From Pseudobdellovibrionaceae bacterium (GTDB lineage Bacteria; Bdellovibrionota; Bdellovibrionia; Bdellovibrionales; Bdellovibrionaceae), in contig JAHBUS010000002.1 in the NCBI GenBank assembly GCA_019637955.1, positions 62,001 to 126,000 of the forward strand: a DNA stretch of 64,000 nt, in the 5' to 3' direction. The position numbers and the translations under genes were made by a program. Shown here piece by piece: positions 3,688 to 33,471 of the stretch. Position 1 is the first letter of the stretch; every line of letters starts with the position of its first letter. The notes beneath the pieces were generated by a model, which worked only from the letters and a program-made list of their open reading frames with translations, did no database searches and had not been told where the DNA came from.

Positions 3688-5067
3688 TCATTTTTTCGTT
3701 TCAATTCCTAATGCTTTGGCTCGGCTATAAAGCGTCGGCTTGGGTACTCCCAGGACTTCGGCGGTCTTTCCCAGAGAGCCCGTCCTCTTAAGTAACGACG
3801 TGATGAGCTCACGCAGTTCCTTATCGTGTCGCTCGATCATCCCTTTGTAGCTCTCCGTAAAGTCGGAGTCCGTCTCCGCGCCTAGAAAGCGAATATTGTC
3901 ATCCAAGTGCTCGGATTCGATGAACCGCGCCTCCGTCCGGGCAAGAACGCGGGCCATGACACCTTCAAGTTCGCGGACGTTTCCAGGCCACGAATAGGCT
4001 TTGAGCGCCGAAATAGTACGAACGCGGATTTCCTTTCTTTCGCCAGTTTTCGCGTTCCACCGATCCAATATGCTGTGAACAAGAGGTCCGATGTCGTCGG
4101 GTCGCTCGCGTAGAGGTTTGATCTGAATGGGCATAACGTTCAGGCGATAGTAAAGGTCCTCTCGGAAGCGTCCGGATTTGATTGCGTCTTCGAGTTTGGC
4201 GTTGGTCGCCGCGATGATTCGTACACGAATTTTTATGGGCTTGTTCGTGCCGACCGGTACGATCTCCTTTTCCTGCAAGACACGGAGAAGTTTCGCTTGG
4301 GCGGAAAGAGGCATGTCGCCGATTTCATCCAGGAAGAGGGTTCCACCATTTGCTTCTTGGAAGTAGCCTTTCCGATCGCGCACGGCTCCGGTAAACGATC
4401 CCTTCGTATGCCCGAAGAGTTCACTTTCGATTACGCCTTCGCTGATCGCAGCACAGTTCACCGCAATAAAGTTGCCGTCTGCCACTTCGGAACGCGAATG
4501 GATTGCCCGCGAAACGCGCTCTTTTCCGGTACCATTTTCACCGCGAATGAGGACAGGCTGATCCGTTTTTGCGTAACGATCTATGAGCCGGCACAGTTCC
4601 GCTAGGTGATCTGATTCACCGATCAAGCCGTGAGAAGCGATGAATCTGCTTTTTTCTTCATCGACGACCGACACGCGAGAAACGGCCGTTTTTCGCTCGA
4701 AGTTTTGGCAATAGCTGCTGATGATCGACTTCAATGCTCCGTCAGGAAGTGCCCGACTCAAAACCGAGTAAGAGCCCGCGTCCATGTGTTTTTGAATCGT
4801 TTCTTCAGTGGGCTCTCCTGTGATGGAGAGGCACTGAATGTCGGGGTCGATGCTTCTGAAAAGTCGAATTGCCTCGTCGCCGTTTTTTCCCGGCATATTG
4901 TGGTCGATGAGAGCTAGAGAGATTTTGCCCTTGTAGCGTTTGACGATGCTTGCGCCGTAATCGACATTCTCCGCGGGAAGAATGTTGTAGCCCTGAGGCT
5001 TCAAGATAGCTCGGAAGAAGTCGAGATTTTCGCTCTTGTCATCTACAAGAAGTAATGTATGTTGCAT
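3688..5067 (-). CDS. Sigma54-dependent response regulator (NtrC type)
   Basis: The 459 residues contain a receiver domain (LLLVDDKSE, phosphoacceptor in LIDHNMPG, about 1-120). The AAA+ activator domain has Walker A GENGTGKE, GSFTGA in place of GAFTGA, and Walker B GGTLFLDEIGDM. A C-terminal Fis-type helix-turn-helix reads GSLGKTAEVLGVPKPTLYSRA. The conserved receiver lysine near SRALPDG appears to be Arg. The ATG at 5067 is preferred over an upstream start because GGAGG lies nine bases before it and the receiver begins at once. It is the first gene of the operon leading to the kinase at 1-1013, so it is probably that kinase's partner. I found no convincing sigma54 promoter in its own leader. 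Confidence 0.92.
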   Translation of the reverse strand: MQHTLLLVDDKSENLDFFRAILKPQGYNILPAENVDYGASIVKRYKGKISLALIDHNMPGKNGDEAIRLFRSIDPDIQCLSITGEPTEETIQKHMDAGSYSVLSRALPDGALKSIISSYCQNFERKTAVSRVSVVDEEKSRFIASHGLIGESDHLAELCRLIDRYAKTDQPVLIRGENGTGKERVSRAIHSRSEVADGNFIAVNCAAISEGVIESELFGHTKGSFTGAVRDRKGYFQEANGGTLFLDEIGDMPLSAQAKLLRVLQEKEIVPVGTNKPIKIRVRIIAATNAKLEDAIKSGRFREDLYYRLNVMPIQIKPLRERPDDIGPLVHSILDRWNAKTGERKEIRVRTISALKAYSWPGNVRELEGVMARVLARTEARFIESEHLDDNIRFLGAETDSDFTESYKGMIERHDKELRELITSLLKRTGSLGKTAEVLGVPKPTLYSRAKALGIETKK

Positions 5068-5118
5068 GGCTGAACCTCCGAGCGCACTAGGGATCAGCCA
5101 ATCTCTCCTTGATGTAAC

Positions 5119-5137
5119 ATTGCCTTTGCTGGGCAAT
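5119..5137. promoter_or_regulatory. Inverted repeat ATTGCC-N7-GGCAAT
   Basis: A perfect 6-bp inverted repeat with a 7-base spacer lies about 55 bases upstream of the response regulator start. It is the only strong dyad in the leader, so it is a candidate operator for the operon or for the XRE gene on the other side. No match to a known consensus is claimed. Confidence 0.35.
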
Positions 5138-5273
5138 CCTAGTACACGCCTCTGGCGCTTTTAACTCGATTGCGTTTAAAGCTACAAACAAGTAGCCGCA
5201 GGTCGTTCAATAAAAACGAAGTTTCGACCATAAGAATTGCGAAAAATCCACTTGGGGGCGATTGGAGAGAGAC

Positions 5274-5591
5274 TTAAGGGCGTGAATTAGGCGTCTTTTT
5301 CTTTCGTTTCTGAATGAGCTCTGTATGAACCATCGTAAGATCGCTGATGATACGATGGATTCGATTTTCAATGGACACCTCCTCTTGGCTTTCTCCCAGT
5401 AGACGCTCGAGAGAAACGCCAAAGGCAGTGGCAATTTTTTGGTATGGCTCGCCAAGAATTTTTCGTCCATATTCCCATTCACGATAGGTGGTTTCTGGTA
5501 CGCCGATCCGACGTGCAGCTTCACGCATGGAGATCCTTCGCTCAAGGCGAAGCTTTTTGAGTTTTCGTCCAAATCCTTCCATTTCATCCAT
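5274..5591 (-). CDS. XRE-family transcriptional regulator
   Basis: A 105-residue protein with a Cro/C1-type helix-turn-helix at about residues 7-62: LKKLRLERRISMREAARRIG followed by VPETTYREWEYGRKI and IATAFGVSLERLL. The tail is basic (KRKKKTPNSRP) and has no sensor domain. The start is uncertain between ATG codons at 5591 and 5582; neither has a strong ribosome-binding site. It lies downstream of the membrane protein and PAS-like genes on the same strand and may be co-transcribed with them. Target unknown. Confidence 0.8.
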   Translation of the reverse strand: MDEMEGFGRKLKKLRLERRISMREAARRIGVPETTYREWEYGRKILGEPYQKIATAFGVSLERLLGESQEEVSIENRIHRIISDLTMVHTELIQKRKKKTPNSRP

Positions 5592-5624
5592 CCGTTAATA
5601 TATAAAAATTCACTATCCCTATCC

Positions 5625-5906
5625 TTATTGTGCAAAACGCGAACGCATGAACCGCATGAGGAGTGTCAGTGCGCCTGCGATAGCGGATAGTCTAAGAATT
5701 GTTTTTCTTTCTTTTTCGAGTTGAGGATCGTCTCGTTCCTTTAGAAGCGGATAAAAGAGAATCAAAAAAAGGATAAGCAGCAAGATCCTCTCTAAGGGGA
5801 GAAAATCAGTTGTCAGACCGCCGAGCGGATTTCTCTGGGTTGGTGTCGAATGCGGGATGTGCCAGACAGCCAGCATTTTTGATTGTATGAAATCAAGAAT
5901 GCGCAT
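5625..5906 (-). CDS. Small membrane protein of unknown function
   Basis: A 93-residue protein with one strong hydrophobic segment (ILLLILFLILFYPLL, about 41-55), a charged linker ERDDPQLEKERKT and a second weaker segment near the C-terminus, ending MRFMRSRFAQ. The start ATG directly follows the TAG stop of the PAS-like gene, which supports real, coupled translation. I recognise no family. Confidence 0.55.
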   Translation of the reverse strand: MRILDFIQSKMLAVWHIPHSTPTQRNPLGGLTTDFLPLERILLLILFLILFYPLLKERDDPQLEKERKTILRLSAIAGALTLLMRFMRSRFAQ

Positions 5907-6215
5907 CTACCGTCTGACCTCGACAAGTACGAACTCTGAATTTCTTAATGTCCTTACGATCAATTGCAAGTGGCCGGCACCAATTTTAAGACGCCTGTAC
6001 CCTTCTTGCTTCGGTGTAAAGAGAGATCTTAGGTGAGAGACACTGATTTTTTCGAGGTCTGAAAAACTGATTTTTGCGACTGAGAGCAGCTTTCTCGCGG
6101 CTTCATTCATGCGAGTCACTCGACCCATACGATGAATCAAAAAAATGGGCTCGTGAATCTTTTCAAGGAATGTAAAGCCGTAGTCAGCTAGACATTCTCC
6201 GACACTGTATTTCAC
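5907..6215 (-). CDS. PAS-like single-domain protein
   Basis: A 102-residue protein that reads like a lone PAS fold: EPIFLIHRMGRVTRMNEAARKLLS resembles the standard PAS opening where a residue environment such as N-x-A-A follows the first hairpin. A sheet-rich tail follows (YRRLKIGAGHLQLIVRTL, then EFVLVEVRR). There is no kinase, HTH or cyclase domain. It heads the minus-strand cluster PAS-like, membrane protein, XRE regulator, and faces the kdp-linked porin across a shared intergenic region. A small sensor or anti-factor role is possible but unproven. Confidence 0.55.
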   Translation of the reverse strand: MKYSVGECLADYGFTFLEKIHEPIFLIHRMGRVTRMNEAARKLLSVAKISFSDLEKISVSHLRSLFTPKQEGYRRLKIGAGHLQLIVRTLRNSEFVLVEVRR

Positions 6216-6276
6216 TTTGGTCTCCTTCGGGCACGGCGTTTTCGACAGCCCAATACGTCTAATCTAAGGAACCGAA

Positions 6277-6362
6277 GCGTAAAAAAGATGTAAAAAACTG
6301 CGCCCTTCGACTGCGCGTGCGTAAAAACGGCGTAAAAATCGCGCTCTTTACAGCATTTTTAC
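6277..6362. promoter_or_regulatory. Cluster of KdpE/OmpR-like direct-repeat boxes
   Basis: Three paired direct repeats with about 11-bp period lie between the PAS-like gene and the porin: GCGTAAAAAAGATGTAAAAA at 6277-6296, the GCGTAAAAACG/GCGTAAAAATC pair at 6319-6340, and TTTAC..TTTTTAC in reverse sense at 6347-6362. OmpR-family regulators bind such tandem half-sites. The first box recurs exactly, inverted, before kdpF. KdpE encoded at 14879 is the obvious candidate. Confidence 0.6.
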
Positions 6363-6411
6363 GGCCAGAGGGGAGATAAATAGTTCGCTTAAACAAGCGG
6401 AGGAAAAAGAA

Positions 6412-7560
6412 ATGAAAACGACCGTTCCTACGAAAAATAAAATCTATTTTGGTTCTAAAGTGATTGTAGTTGGGGTCTCGGCCCTGTTGATCTCGGCATC
6501 TTTAATTTCGATGGATGCCCTTGCCGAAACCGAGCGCAAGGTTACATGGGGCGGGTTCGTCGATACTCAGTATAGCTATGATTTCAATTCCCCGCCGAAT
6601 GGAGACCGCGTTTTCACGACCCAGCCCGCGCGCAGTAATGAGTTCAATATCAACCTTGGGTTTGTCGAAGCGAAGCTCGATTCGTCAAAGATTCGGGCTC
6701 GTTTTGCTTTGCAGGCAGGCACCTCCGTCCAAAGCAACTATTCATCCGAACCGCGCCGAGGGAGCGTGAGCGGCGGCGACCTTTCACGGCATATTCAAGA
6801 AGCCAGGATAGGGTATGCGGTCAGCGAGCGAACTTGGGTTGATGCGGGTATTTTCTTTGCCCACGTTGGAGCGGAGTCATGGATTTCAAGAGATAATTTG
6901 ACCCTTACGCGCTCACTTACAGCGGAGTATTCGCCTTACTATCTGTCCGGAGCGAAAATTACCCACGTTTGGTCGGATCGGCTTTCCACTCTGCTCCTCG
7001 TAACGAACGGCTGGCAGAACATCTCTGAGAACAATACGGACAAAAATCTCGGGACCGGCATCGAATACTCTTTCGATCAGATTACGCTGGCCTACAACGC
7101 CATGTTTGGAAATGAGGTCTCTCCGGATTTGAATGGGGTGGCTCGTAAAGGCGAGTTTCGCCACTTTCACAACTTCATTCTAAAGAACAGATCCCCCGAC
7201 CGGATTGAGTGGATTGCACAGGCCGATTTCGGCTTTCAACGAAAACCCGACAGCTCCAGCTATAGCTCTTGGTGGGGAACGGCTCTGGCGGCCAGGTATA
7301 AGCTGAATGAAGCGCAGAAAGTTTCCTTACGCCTTGAGCATTATGAAGATCTCGATCAGGTGATCATCGTCACAGGACAAGGCGCGCCCTTTAACGGCAC
7401 GGGCGGCTCTATCGGTTTCGACCAGGTTCTTGAAGAAGGCTTGCTGTGGCGTAATGAAGTCCGTTATCTGGCTGCGGCCGAAAACCTGTTTCCCAAGGAT
7501 GGCGGTTCGACGGCCAAAGATGACACAACGGTTACAACCTCCCTGGCGCTTTCGTTTTGA
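6412..7560 (+). CDS. Outer-membrane beta-barrel porin (OmpL/BBP2-like)
   Basis: The 382-residue precursor has a long signal peptide ending near SMDALAE. After it comes a barrel with WGGFVDTQYSYDFNSPPN, FNINLGFVEAKLD, RIGYAVSERTWVDAGIF and SPYYLSGAKITHVWSDRLS, typical of the putative beta-barrel porin-2 (OmpL-like) family, ending in a terminal Phe (SLALSF). It has AGCGGAGGAAAAAGAA before its ATG. The location directly before kdpF, with matching regulatory boxes, suggests it lets K+ cross the outer membrane when potassium is scarce. That role is inference; the barrel call is firm. Confidence 0.85.
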   Translation: MKTTVPTKNKIYFGSKVIVVGVSALLISASLISMDALAETERKVTWGGFVDTQYSYDFNSPPNGDRVFTTQPARSNEFNINLGFVEAKLDSSKIRARFALQAGTSVQSNYSSEPRRGSVSGGDLSRHIQEARIGYAVSERTWVDAGIFFAHVGAESWISRDNLTLTRSLTAEYSPYYLSGAKITHVWSDRLSTLLLVTNGWQNISENNTDKNLGTGIEYSFDQITLAYNAMFGNEVSPDLNGVARKGEFRHFHNFILKNRSPDRIEWIAQADFGFQRKPDSSSYSSWWGTALAARYKLNEAQKVSLRLEHYEDLDQVIIVTGQGAPFNGTGGSIGFDQVLEEGLLWRNEVRYLAAAENLFPKDGGSTAKDDTTVTTSLALSF

Positions 7561-26166: not shown

Positions 26167-27255
26167 TCAAGAAGTTTTGATCGAGGCGAGATAGGAGTGG
26201 ATCTCGCTGCGGCCGCCCATGGCCAAAACCTGGGGACGACGCTGTAAAAACGATTTTTCATAAAGGGGATCGTAATACCAAGCGAGCAGTTTCTCGATCC
26301 AACGGCGAGAAGGACTGAGTTCACCGGTTTCGCGAAAATGCGTTTCGGCAGCGCCCAAATCGCCCAAAATCTCTTGGCTGCGCAGTCCGCCCAGCTTGGC
26401 TTGAATTTTTTGAATCGAAGCGCGCAAGCTCAAAAAAAGTTCCGGGTCACGGGAGCGGGAGACCACGTACTCTTGGTAGGTATTTTCAATTCGGTCCTCG
26501 AGGCTTTCGTTCAAAACAAGAACGGGAGAGTCGCGCTTTCTCAAAAAGAAAGCCTCGGGTTGAACGATGCTGCCGATCATGCGGCTTTCGTCTTCAACTA
26601 GAAGTGGACGGTTGAGAAGCCTGATCTTGGTTTTTCCCAAGGCCAGCGCGAGTTCGTTCTCATAGTTGATCTGAGTGGGTTGAGGTTCTGGATAGGCGCC
26701 GAAGGCCGAGCCCCGATGGCGCGCCAGGAGTTCGAGATTCACGGAGGGGTAGGCGCTCTCGCGCAAAAACTGAGTTTTACCCGCACCTGTTTTGCCGGTC
26801 AGGACGAGCATATTTTGAAAAGAAGCGGCGGCCAATTCATCCATGAGGAACTGCCGCATCTTCTTGTACCCACCATCGAGGCGCGCCAGGGCGTATCCGC
26901 GCTCGCGCATCCACGATTGCGCCAATTGCGAGCGAAGACCGCCGCGAAAGCAAGTCATCACGGTGTGCTTGGGACGCTGCGAGTAAGTTTGAATCCAGGC
27001 TTGGATTCGTTCTTCTTTGATAGCTCCGCTCACCAACTGGTGACCCAATTCGATGGCGCGCTCGGGGCCCTCAATTCTGTAAGTGGTGCCCACAAGGGCG
27101 CGCTCGTTGTCATTTAAAATCGGCCTGTTCACCGAAGCGGGAAGGCTGCCGGCCGCAAATTCCACCGGCGCGCGAACATCAATGACCTGAACTTGACCCT
27201 CAAGTAAACGAGCCCACAAATCTTTGGCCTGAAGAGTGTCCGGACTCAAGTTCAA
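26167..27255 (-). CDS. selU: tRNA 2-selenouridine synthase
   Basis: The protein (also called MnmH or YbbB) replaces sulphur by selenium at the wobble 2-thiouridine of tRNAs, using selenophosphate. It has an N-terminal rhodanese domain with catalytic Cys in MTCFRGGLRSQLAQ and a P-loop domain with Walker A TGKTGAGKTQF. Taking the TTG at 27255, which overlaps the selD stop, gives 362 residues, almost the E. coli length, starting NLSPDTLQAKDL. The frame remains open upstream but inside selD. Being coupled to selD fits the pathway exactly. Confidence 0.93.
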   Translation of the reverse strand: MNLSPDTLQAKDLWARLLEGQVQVIDVRAPVEFAAGSLPASVNRPILNDNERALVGTTYRIEGPERAIELGHQLVSGAIKEERIQAWIQTYSQRPKHTVMTCFRGGLRSQLAQSWMRERGYALARLDGGYKKMRQFLMDELAAASFQNMLVLTGKTGAGKTQFLRESAYPSVNLELLARHRGSAFGAYPEPQPTQINYENELALALGKTKIRLLNRPLLVEDESRMIGSIVQPEAFFLRKRDSPVLVLNESLEDRIENTYQEYVVSRSRDPELFLSLRASIQKIQAKLGGLRSQEILGDLGAAETHFRETGELSPSRRWIEKLLAWYYDPLYEKSFLQRRPQVLAMGGRSEIHSYLASIKTS

Positions 27256-28292
27256 GGGAGAACGTCCACGGCCCAGGCACTGGCGGGTTCGACCGATCCC
27301 ACCACGCCCGCACGGCCAAAACGTGAACGGAGCTTTTTCACGATCGCCTCGGATTGTGCAGGATCGACGCTCAAGAGAAGACCCCCGCTGGTTTGGGGGT
27401 CGCAAACGACGTTCTTCTGCACGGGCGACAGGCCATCGGTGCGGCAATGGGCTTGGGTGTACTGCGCATTGCTGGCATGAGCTTTGGTGAGGAAGCCATT
27501 TTCCAAACAAGACAGGGTCTGTTCGAAAAGAGGCAGACGGCTAAAGGTGAAAGAGAAGGTCTTGCCGCTGGCTTTCGCCATCTGTTGGCTATGACCTAAA
27601 AGGCCAAAACCCGTGATATCGGTGGCCGAGTGGATGGAGGCCGCCTCGGTTTCAGAAAAAAGATCCAGGACTTGATTGAGAGTCATCATGCTGTTCAAAG
27701 GCTCCTGCAGCTGCCCTTCGGTCAAATGCTGGCGCTTCAACGAAGCCATGCAGGTGCCGGTGCCGAGCGCTTTGGTGAGAATCAGGTGATCGCCCGCACG
27801 TGCGCCGGCATTGGACCAAACCCGTTTCGGGTGAACAAACCCCGTCACCGAAAGGCCGAACTTTAAAGTGTCGTCGTCGATCGAGTGTCCGCCCACAAAG
27901 CTCACGCCCGCTTCGCGCATTTTATCGCTCGCGCCTTGGAGAACTTCCACGATCACGTCGTTTTCGAGCACGCCCAAAGGAAAAGCCAGAATGGCCATCG
28001 CGGTTTTGGGCGTTCCACCCATGGCGTACACGTCAGAGAGGGCATTGGCCGCGGCGACGGCGCCGAATGCGCGTGGAGAGTCGACGATGGGCGTGAAAAA
28101 ATCCAGAGTTTGCACTATCGCCAAGTCTTCGGAGATTTTGTAGATCGCGGCGTCGTCAAACAAACCGCCGTCGACCATCACGGCCGCATCGTTCGGCGGA
28201 AATTGAACCTGGCCGAGAATCTTTCGAAGTTCGCTGGCGGCGACTTTGGCCGCGCAGCCACCTTTTTTGACGGTTTGTGTGAGCTGTACCAT
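27252..28292 (-). CDS. selD: Selenide, water dikinase (selenophosphate synthetase)
   Basis: The 346-residue enzyme makes selenophosphate from selenide and ATP. The active-site region is KKGGCAAK: the catalytic Cys and the Lys three residues later are present, and the second Cys of the E. coli GCGCK motif is Ala. Other family blocks are LDFFTPIVDSP, NALSDVYAMGG, GGHSIDDD, LTKALGTG, SATDITGFGLLGH and CDPQTSGGLLLSV. The visible use of its product is selU next door; no selA or selB lies in the window. Confidence 0.96.
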   Translation of the reverse strand: MVQLTQTVKKGGCAAKVAASELRKILGQVQFPPNDAAVMVDGGLFDDAAIYKISEDLAIVQTLDFFTPIVDSPRAFGAVAAANALSDVYAMGGTPKTAMAILAFPLGVLENDVIVEVLQGASDKMREAGVSFVGGHSIDDDTLKFGLSVTGFVHPKRVWSNAGARAGDHLILTKALGTGTCMASLKRQHLTEGQLQEPLNSMMTLNQVLDLFSETEAASIHSATDITGFGLLGHSQQMAKASGKTFSFTFSRLPLFEQTLSCLENGFLTKAHASNAQYTQAHCRTDGLSPVQKNVVCDPQTSGGLLLSVDPAQSEAIVKKLRSRFGRAGVVGSVEPASAWAVDVLP

Positions 28293-32859: not shown

Positions 32860-33309
32860 TCAAGCGCTGGCGAGCGTGGGCGAGAACCAACGTCGCAGCA
32901 CGTCCTCTCCGAAGAGGTCGACATTGTAGTTCAGAAATTTCTCGAGATTGGTTTCGAACTCAAAACCTCGCGTTTCAAACACGGGAACCAAATCCGGTTG
33001 ATGATGCAGATATTCACCAAAATGCTTTTGGCAAAACTCCATGTAGTCCCGGGTATAGAGCAAGAAAATGTGCCACATCTGATCGATTTCGCGCATGTCG
33101 TCGTCCATGATGAAGAAGAAATTCAGGGCTTCGTCATGGGGTGCTTGGCTTTTATCCAGCAAGTGACGGCGAGTGCCCCAAAAGAAAAGTTTCAGATCCT
33201 CGAAGATCTGTTCAGCGCGGTCCGATTTTTGCGGATTTTCTTTTTGAAAGCGTCTGATGACGCCCGGATTTTTGTAATCCAAAATTTCGCTCAGTTTGCA
33301 AAGTTTCAC
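32860..33309 (-). CDS. GRDP/DUF1399-like protein
   Basis: A 149-residue protein starting at GTG with AAGGAGG before it. The core reads EIDQMWHIFLLYTRDYMEFC followed by HFGEYLHHQPD, resembling the glycine-rich-domain-protein (DUF1399-like) motif in which WH, FC and HH residues are conserved. These His/Cys/Asp residues could bind a metal. It lies 52 bases after a 27-residue CC-rich peptide gene, with a strong hairpin between. Family assignment is from motif memory; function unknown. Confidence 0.6.
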   Translation of the reverse strand: MKLCKLSEILDYKNPGVIRRFQKENPQKSDRAEQIFEDLKLFFWGTRRHLLDKSQAPHDEALNFFFIMDDDMREIDQMWHIFLLYTRDYMEFCQKHFGEYLHHQPDLVPVFETRGFEFETNLEKFLNYNVDLFGEDVLRRWFSPTLASA

Positions 33310-33327
33310 GGTTCGACCTCCTTCAAG

Positions 33328-33353
33328 GGGAGCGGCAGATCTCCGCCGCTCCC
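33328..33353 (-). promoter_or_regulatory. Intercistronic hairpin after the CC peptide
   Basis: A 9-bp GC-rich perfect stem (GGGAGCGGC/GCCGCTCCC) with an 8-base loop, nine bases after the peptide stop and before the ribosome-binding site of the next gene. No T-tract follows. It may attenuate readthrough or protect the peptide mRNA, giving more peptide than protein. Confidence 0.6.
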
Positions 33354-33361
33354 ACGGTTTC

Positions 33362-33445
33362 TCAGAAAACGGCGCAACATTTACCGCAGCAGCGACCCGC
33401 CGCGCGTTTGGCCTTCATGATTTGACTGACGAGATTGTTTTTCAT
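33362..33445 (-). CDS. 27-residue CCGKCC peptide
   Basis: A short gene with GGGAGG before its ATG encodes MKNNLVSQIMKAKRAAG followed by RCCGKCCAVF. Four of the last ten residues are Cys in a CC-x-x-CC arrangement, after a basic amphipathic helix. There is no signal peptide. The layout (short leader, Cys-dense C-terminus, hairpin, then a conserved partner gene) resembles a modified-peptide precursor or a tiny metal-binding peptide. I know of no named family. Confidence 0.6.
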   Translation of the reverse strand: MKNNLVSQIMKAKRAAGRCCGKCCAVF

Positions 33446-33449
33446 AAGC

Positions 33450-33471
33450 GTTCCTCCCTTCTGGAAGGAAC
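33450..33471 (-). promoter_or_regulatory. Hairpin covering the ribosome-binding site of the CC peptide
   Basis: On the mRNA GTTCCTTCC and GGGAGGAAC can pair (nine positions, one of them G-U) around a 4-base loop. The 3' arm contains the Shine-Dalgarno sequence, so folding would hide it. Confidence 0.4.

Follow-up and report, generated by a model that had tools for sequence, protein, structure and literature searches.

A very short gene for a cysteine-rich peptide and the gene that follows it on the minus strand form a conserved pair across many bacteria, and it is suggested, with a probability of about 0.6, that they encode a RiPP-like peptide precursor and its maturation protein, related to MctA of the E. 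coli microcin Mcc1229 and remotely to the plant glycine-rich domain proteins (GRDP), such as GRDP1 and GRDP2. The existence of the pair itself is close to certain. The pair was examined in a 64,000-nucleotide stretch of DNA from a Pseudobdellovibrionaceae bacterium, hereafter the window, and in homologous loci (labelled L) from other genomes (labelled G), plasmids and phages (Table 1). An earlier note, made from the sequence alone, had described a CCGKCC peptide, a 9-bp hairpin and a protein with conserved-looking WH, FC and HH residues, and each of these elements was confirmed. The two genes are separated by 52 nt, and the hairpin in this gap comprises the 9 contiguous Watson-Crick pairs described in the note plus a G.U and a G-C pair, with a predicted stability of -23.9 kcal/mol for the 42-nt stretch and a z score of -4.75, no shuffled sequence being as stable. 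Among 113 ORFs of 20-45 aa preceded by a ribosome-binding site in the window, the peptide gene is the only one with 4 or more Cys in its last 12 residues. A CPA2-type antiporter gene lies upstream on the same strand and a convergent TUDOR-domain gene lies downstream, so that the unit consists of two genes.

Table 1. Coordinates of the peptide-partner pair in the window and of further features in the window and in related loci.
Locus	Position	Strand	Feature	Basis or remark
Window	33453-33458	-	Ribosome-binding site GGGAGG of the peptide gene	Read from the sequence
Window	33362-33445	-	Putative precursor peptide gene, ATG start, 27 aa, MKNNLVSQIMKAKRAAGRCCGKCCAVF; leader-like helix MKNNLVSQIMKAK, core AAGRCCGKCCAVF	ORF with SD; homologues in 9 genomes beside the same partner; third-codon-position bias 0.63 vs 0.25
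Window	33328-33353	-	Intercistronic hairpin, 11 pairs, no U-run	Folding and shuffling; hairpins of different sequence at the same place in 7 of 10 close loci
Window	33317-33323	-	Ribosome-binding site AAGGAGG of the partner gene	Read from the sequence
Window	32860-33309	-	Partner gene, GTG start, 149 aa, WH-Y-C-HH domain (GRDP-like superfamily, remote)	Invariant D76, H80, Y89, H103
Window	26167-28292		SelD-like gene (27252-28292) followed by a tRNA 2-selenouridine synthase-like gene	By eye
L052 (G253 contig 3)	6985-8276		MNIO gene (PF05114) and its DUF2063 partner, 1.5 kb from the peptide-partner pair	Probably a separate pathway
L060 (G227 contig 318)	2412-3530		Domain fused to a long C-terminus with two copies of a DP..QC.TPSG..AP.TI repeat	
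L064 (G266 contig 116)	3382-4890		Domain as the N-terminus of a 502-aa protein, behind a Sec-type precursor ending ETPCAGIDRG	No Pfam match
L072 (Cupriavidus pMTS1)	3956-4561		Domain with a tail of repeated AYCAR units, like a precursor with several cores	No gene annotated there
L075 (Klebsiella phage 05F01)	1806-2666		Phage protein of this family ending in a long CSSSS repeat	
L103 (Rhizobium gallicum plasmid)	4920-6898		Fused member with a glycosyltransferase gene	Inside a nif gene region
L119 (G053 contig 91)	1640-1710		Decayed peptide remnant	Partner gene deleted

The partner protein belongs to a wide family that is not recognised by any Pfam or NCBIfam model, and it also matches no PADLOC family. 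Its distribution is patchy, with homologues in 10 of 66 genomes of the same family and 27 of 291 genomes of the same phylum (taken to be Bdellovibrionota), one relative being found in a Deltaproteobacteria MAG. Searches of annotated plasmids and phages extended the family to E. coli, Agrobacterium, Rhizobium, Streptomyces, Nonomuraea, Rhodococcus, Paenibacillus, Jeotgalibacillus, Vibrio, Cupriavidus, Aureibacter and Klebsiella phage 05F01, whereas five scans of viral contigs, including a WH-motif pattern with 25 hits, returned no member of the family, and PHROGs, PADLOC and PDB sequence searches gave nothing convincing. In an alignment of 40 members, Asp76, His80, Tyr89 and His103 are invariant, W79 is kept in 39, T86 and C93 in 38, and H102 in 37, so that the WH, FC and HH residues proved to be truly conserved, although invariant residues may also be structural. 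An AlphaFold2 model built from two sequences reached a pLDDT of only 48 and was not used.

The association of the peptide with the partner is supported by several lines of analysis. About 25 of 27 partner homologues across the phylum have a Cys peptide gene directly upstream, contradicting the condition set beforehand for rejecting the pair, namely that relatives never have such a peptide. These peptides include MKKSLIQTIMTNKKAKDKCFGKCCAIVR, MKQKLISQILNAKKAAGKCRAKCCLVTNH and MKEKLITKILKERKACGCKPKCCLWKRY, the more distant KELLIERLLAKAELTYKCCAGNCGH or KETLLNEILASKIIDDGCCGGCR, and a third type of 60-99 aa with a Sec-like signal, recognised by eye, ending TCGAGSHGGDGDPV or similar. Using a mechanical rule, 21 of 25 gene-called partners have an upstream ORF preceded by a ribosome-binding site with at least one Cys in its last 20 residues, against 30 of 168 other genes of the same stretches (p about 1e-10), and 16 of 25 against 7 of 168 have two or more Cys (p 4e-12). 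A profile of ten close peptides gave strong hits (E<1e-10) in 291 genomes only at those ten sites, all next to a partner; as these ten built the profile, the informative part is that no other strong site exists. Differences at the three codon positions amount to 0.37, 0.25 and 0.63, and 183 of 345 identical residues are written with different codons, which is selection on the protein. The next profile hit, in G053 (E 3.6e-5), is a remnant which has lost its start and in which the partner gene is gone, while the neighbouring MFS gene of the G044 locus is still adjacent. The N-terminal half of the close peptides shares the pattern MKxxLIxKIM, and a scoring matrix built from this phylum also fits the peptide upstream of the Aureibacter (Bacteroidota) partner, MEKKETIIENLLAERKDLGLGHCSNCGHCSASF, with 0 of 5000 shuffles as good, whereas the C-terminal halves differ widely but keep Cys, as in the leader and core pattern of RiPP precursors.

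Outside this phylum the domain mostly carries its own Cys-rich C-terminus, with 12 of 18 members having three or more Cys in the last 35 residues against 4 of 222 background genes. These include CKGCSACSSCGGGGSC in Agrobacterium, followed by a glycosyltransferase and an ABC exporter, CSQCYQGC in Nonomuraea, CSSGGSSCGGGCGGGCGS in Jeotgalibacillus and the AYCAR repeats in Cupriavidus. Most telling is MctA, a 232-aa protein encoded on E. coli plasmid p0.1229_3 with the tail VCGCSGKGCGAGCSCNSR, which is required together with an ABC transporter and a JmjC/cupin protein for Mcc1229, an iron-regulated microcin of unknown chemistry taken up through CirA and TonB (PMC8853679). The protein of L005, a close relative of the window protein, hit mctA in a tblastn search at E 1e-12, with 97% of that relative aligned at 28.6% identity and D, WH, Y, C and HH in place; the family profile gave E 6e-42, although that profile includes MctA. 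The Cys-rich tail was noted by the authors of that study, but no identification of the domain in front of it was found in the parts consulted. In contrast to the window pair, the peptide is here a tail of the same ORF, and the operon also holds immunity genes, an exporter and a cupin gene, neither of the latter two being found beside the window pair. A leader motif in the MctA tail, which looked plausible by eye, fitted the matrix no better than shuffled sequences (579 of 5000), and MctC and a Streptomyces 347-aa protein encoded next to a partner are not convincingly homologous (BLAST E 0.028). In a tree, split and fused forms are partly mixed (5 changes for each label), but most deep forks are weak and do not settle the number of fusion or fission events.

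Tailoring-type or export genes lie beside several relatives. A P450 gene overlaps the partner by 4 nt in L002, GNAT genes follow partners with TCGxGSHG precursors, JmjC_2 genes also occur, and the Aureibacter pair lies among CobN, ExbB, DUF2149, TonB receptor and DUF4374 genes. LysR-type genes, which may control the peptide, are divergent from the pair in four loci (L039, L052, L053 and L057). However, no recognised RiPP-modifying enzyme, and no protease, exporter or second tailoring enzyme, was found next to the window pair. While 7 of 10 close loci have a hairpin, the other three have gaps of 4-19 nt without one, which fits a device that lowers partner expression and speaks against a mechanism that needs the hairpin.

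Together, the interpretation given in the earlier note, a peptide with a maturation or binding partner, is supported. It is proposed that the two genes form a minimal RiPP-like operon, in which residues 1-13 of the peptide would form an amphipathic leader recognised by the partner and the C-terminal RCCGKCCAVF would be the core. In this view, the partner may be a metal-dependent enzyme using Asp76 and His80, one helix turn apart, and His102/His103 as ligands, with Tyr89 and Cys93 near the site, and acting on the core cysteines; the hairpin would lower expression of the partner, giving more substrate than enzyme; and the mature peptide would probably be exported and be metal-related or bacteriocin-like, as in the case of MctA. 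The i, i+4 spacing of D76 and H80 and their invariance make a metal site likely but do not prove it, and the assignment as a metal-dependent Cys-modifying enzyme remains tentative. The analysis directly establishes both ORFs, their conservation, selection and linkage, the fusions, the invariant residues and the hairpin, whereas translation of the peptide, the division into leader and core, recognition, the metal site, chemical modification, export and the biological role are inferred from sequence.

The main alternative, considered possible but unlikely, is a metal-buffering pair without modification, in which the Cys peptide binds a soft metal (Cu, Zn) and the partner acts as its loading or carrier protein. 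The CCxxCC-type cores, the His/Asp-bearing partner, the Aureibacter gene neighbourhood and the Fur regulation and CirA dependence of Mcc1229 (PMC8853679) are in line with this, but many cores have few or no paired Cys (TCGAGSHG, KECGYV, PCAGIDRG), the leader is more conserved than the Cys pattern, and oxidase- or transferase-type genes sit beside several members. A cysteine-responsive attenuator, in which Cys codons stall ribosomes before the hairpin, is suggested by the order of Cys-rich ORF, hairpin and gene, as polycysteine regulatory sORFs exist in mycobacteria (Canestrari et al. 2020, as cited in PMC9094748). It is considered improbable since N-terminal amino acids are conserved with free third positions, three close loci lack the hairpin, some peptides are 57-99 aa with a signal sequence and a single Cys, and the domain and a Cys tail occur as one protein elsewhere. 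A toxin-antitoxin or bacteriocin-immunity pair, to which the short basic amphipathic peptide, the patchy distribution and the microcin homologue might point, is similarly improbable, as immunity in Mcc1229 maps to mctDE and not to MctA (PMC8853679), an immunity protein would not be fused to its toxin in one ORF, and the invariant polar residues look like an active or metal site. Although short ORFs are common, a chance ORF is all but excluded by the linkage, selection and decay of the peptide and its uniqueness in the window.

The pair resembles methanobactin and bufferin systems in having short leader-core or Sec-signal Cys precursors beside a small partner protein, but it is not one of them, since no MNIO enzyme (PF05114) was found in the window genome by a search that detected it in control genomes, and the partner does not match the DUF2063 or MbnC models. 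The GRDP/DUF1399 label proposed in the earlier note is right only remotely. The window protein and its 10 relatives do not match PF07173 at E<=10, and a PF07173 search in 20 genomes gave nothing but was uninformative, as its control genomes gave nothing either, whereas the divergent bridging members L036, P. amygdali and Cupriavidus have PF07173 as their best Pfam match at E 2e-4 to 2e-3 (19.4-22.3 bits), just below the cut-off of 22.7. Plant GRDP2 also joins the domain to a C-terminal stretch, [CG]GGGCGG[GC] (PMC4299439), although in the window the peptide is separate and no RNP motif is present; no earlier statement of this parallel, which is an inference, was found in the papers searched.

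The two-gene peptide system is, as far as could be found, undescribed. A further, tentative reading is that the partner defines a new, widespread family of metal-dependent peptide-cysteine-modifying enzymes, acting on Cys-rich peptides in trans in the window's phylum and Bacteroidota, or on their own Cys/Gly tail in cis in E. coli Mcc1229, Agrobacterium, Streptomyces, Paenibacillus and a phage. The family would then be the bacterial root of the plant DUF1399/GRDP proteins, whose CGGGCGG tails would be candidate self-modified segments. The finding gives an unassigned protein family a testable role, links an E. coli microcin of unknown chemistry to a minimal two-gene version that can be reconstituted in vitro, and suggests a biochemical lead for plant GRDP/DUF1399 proteins, whose function is unknown.
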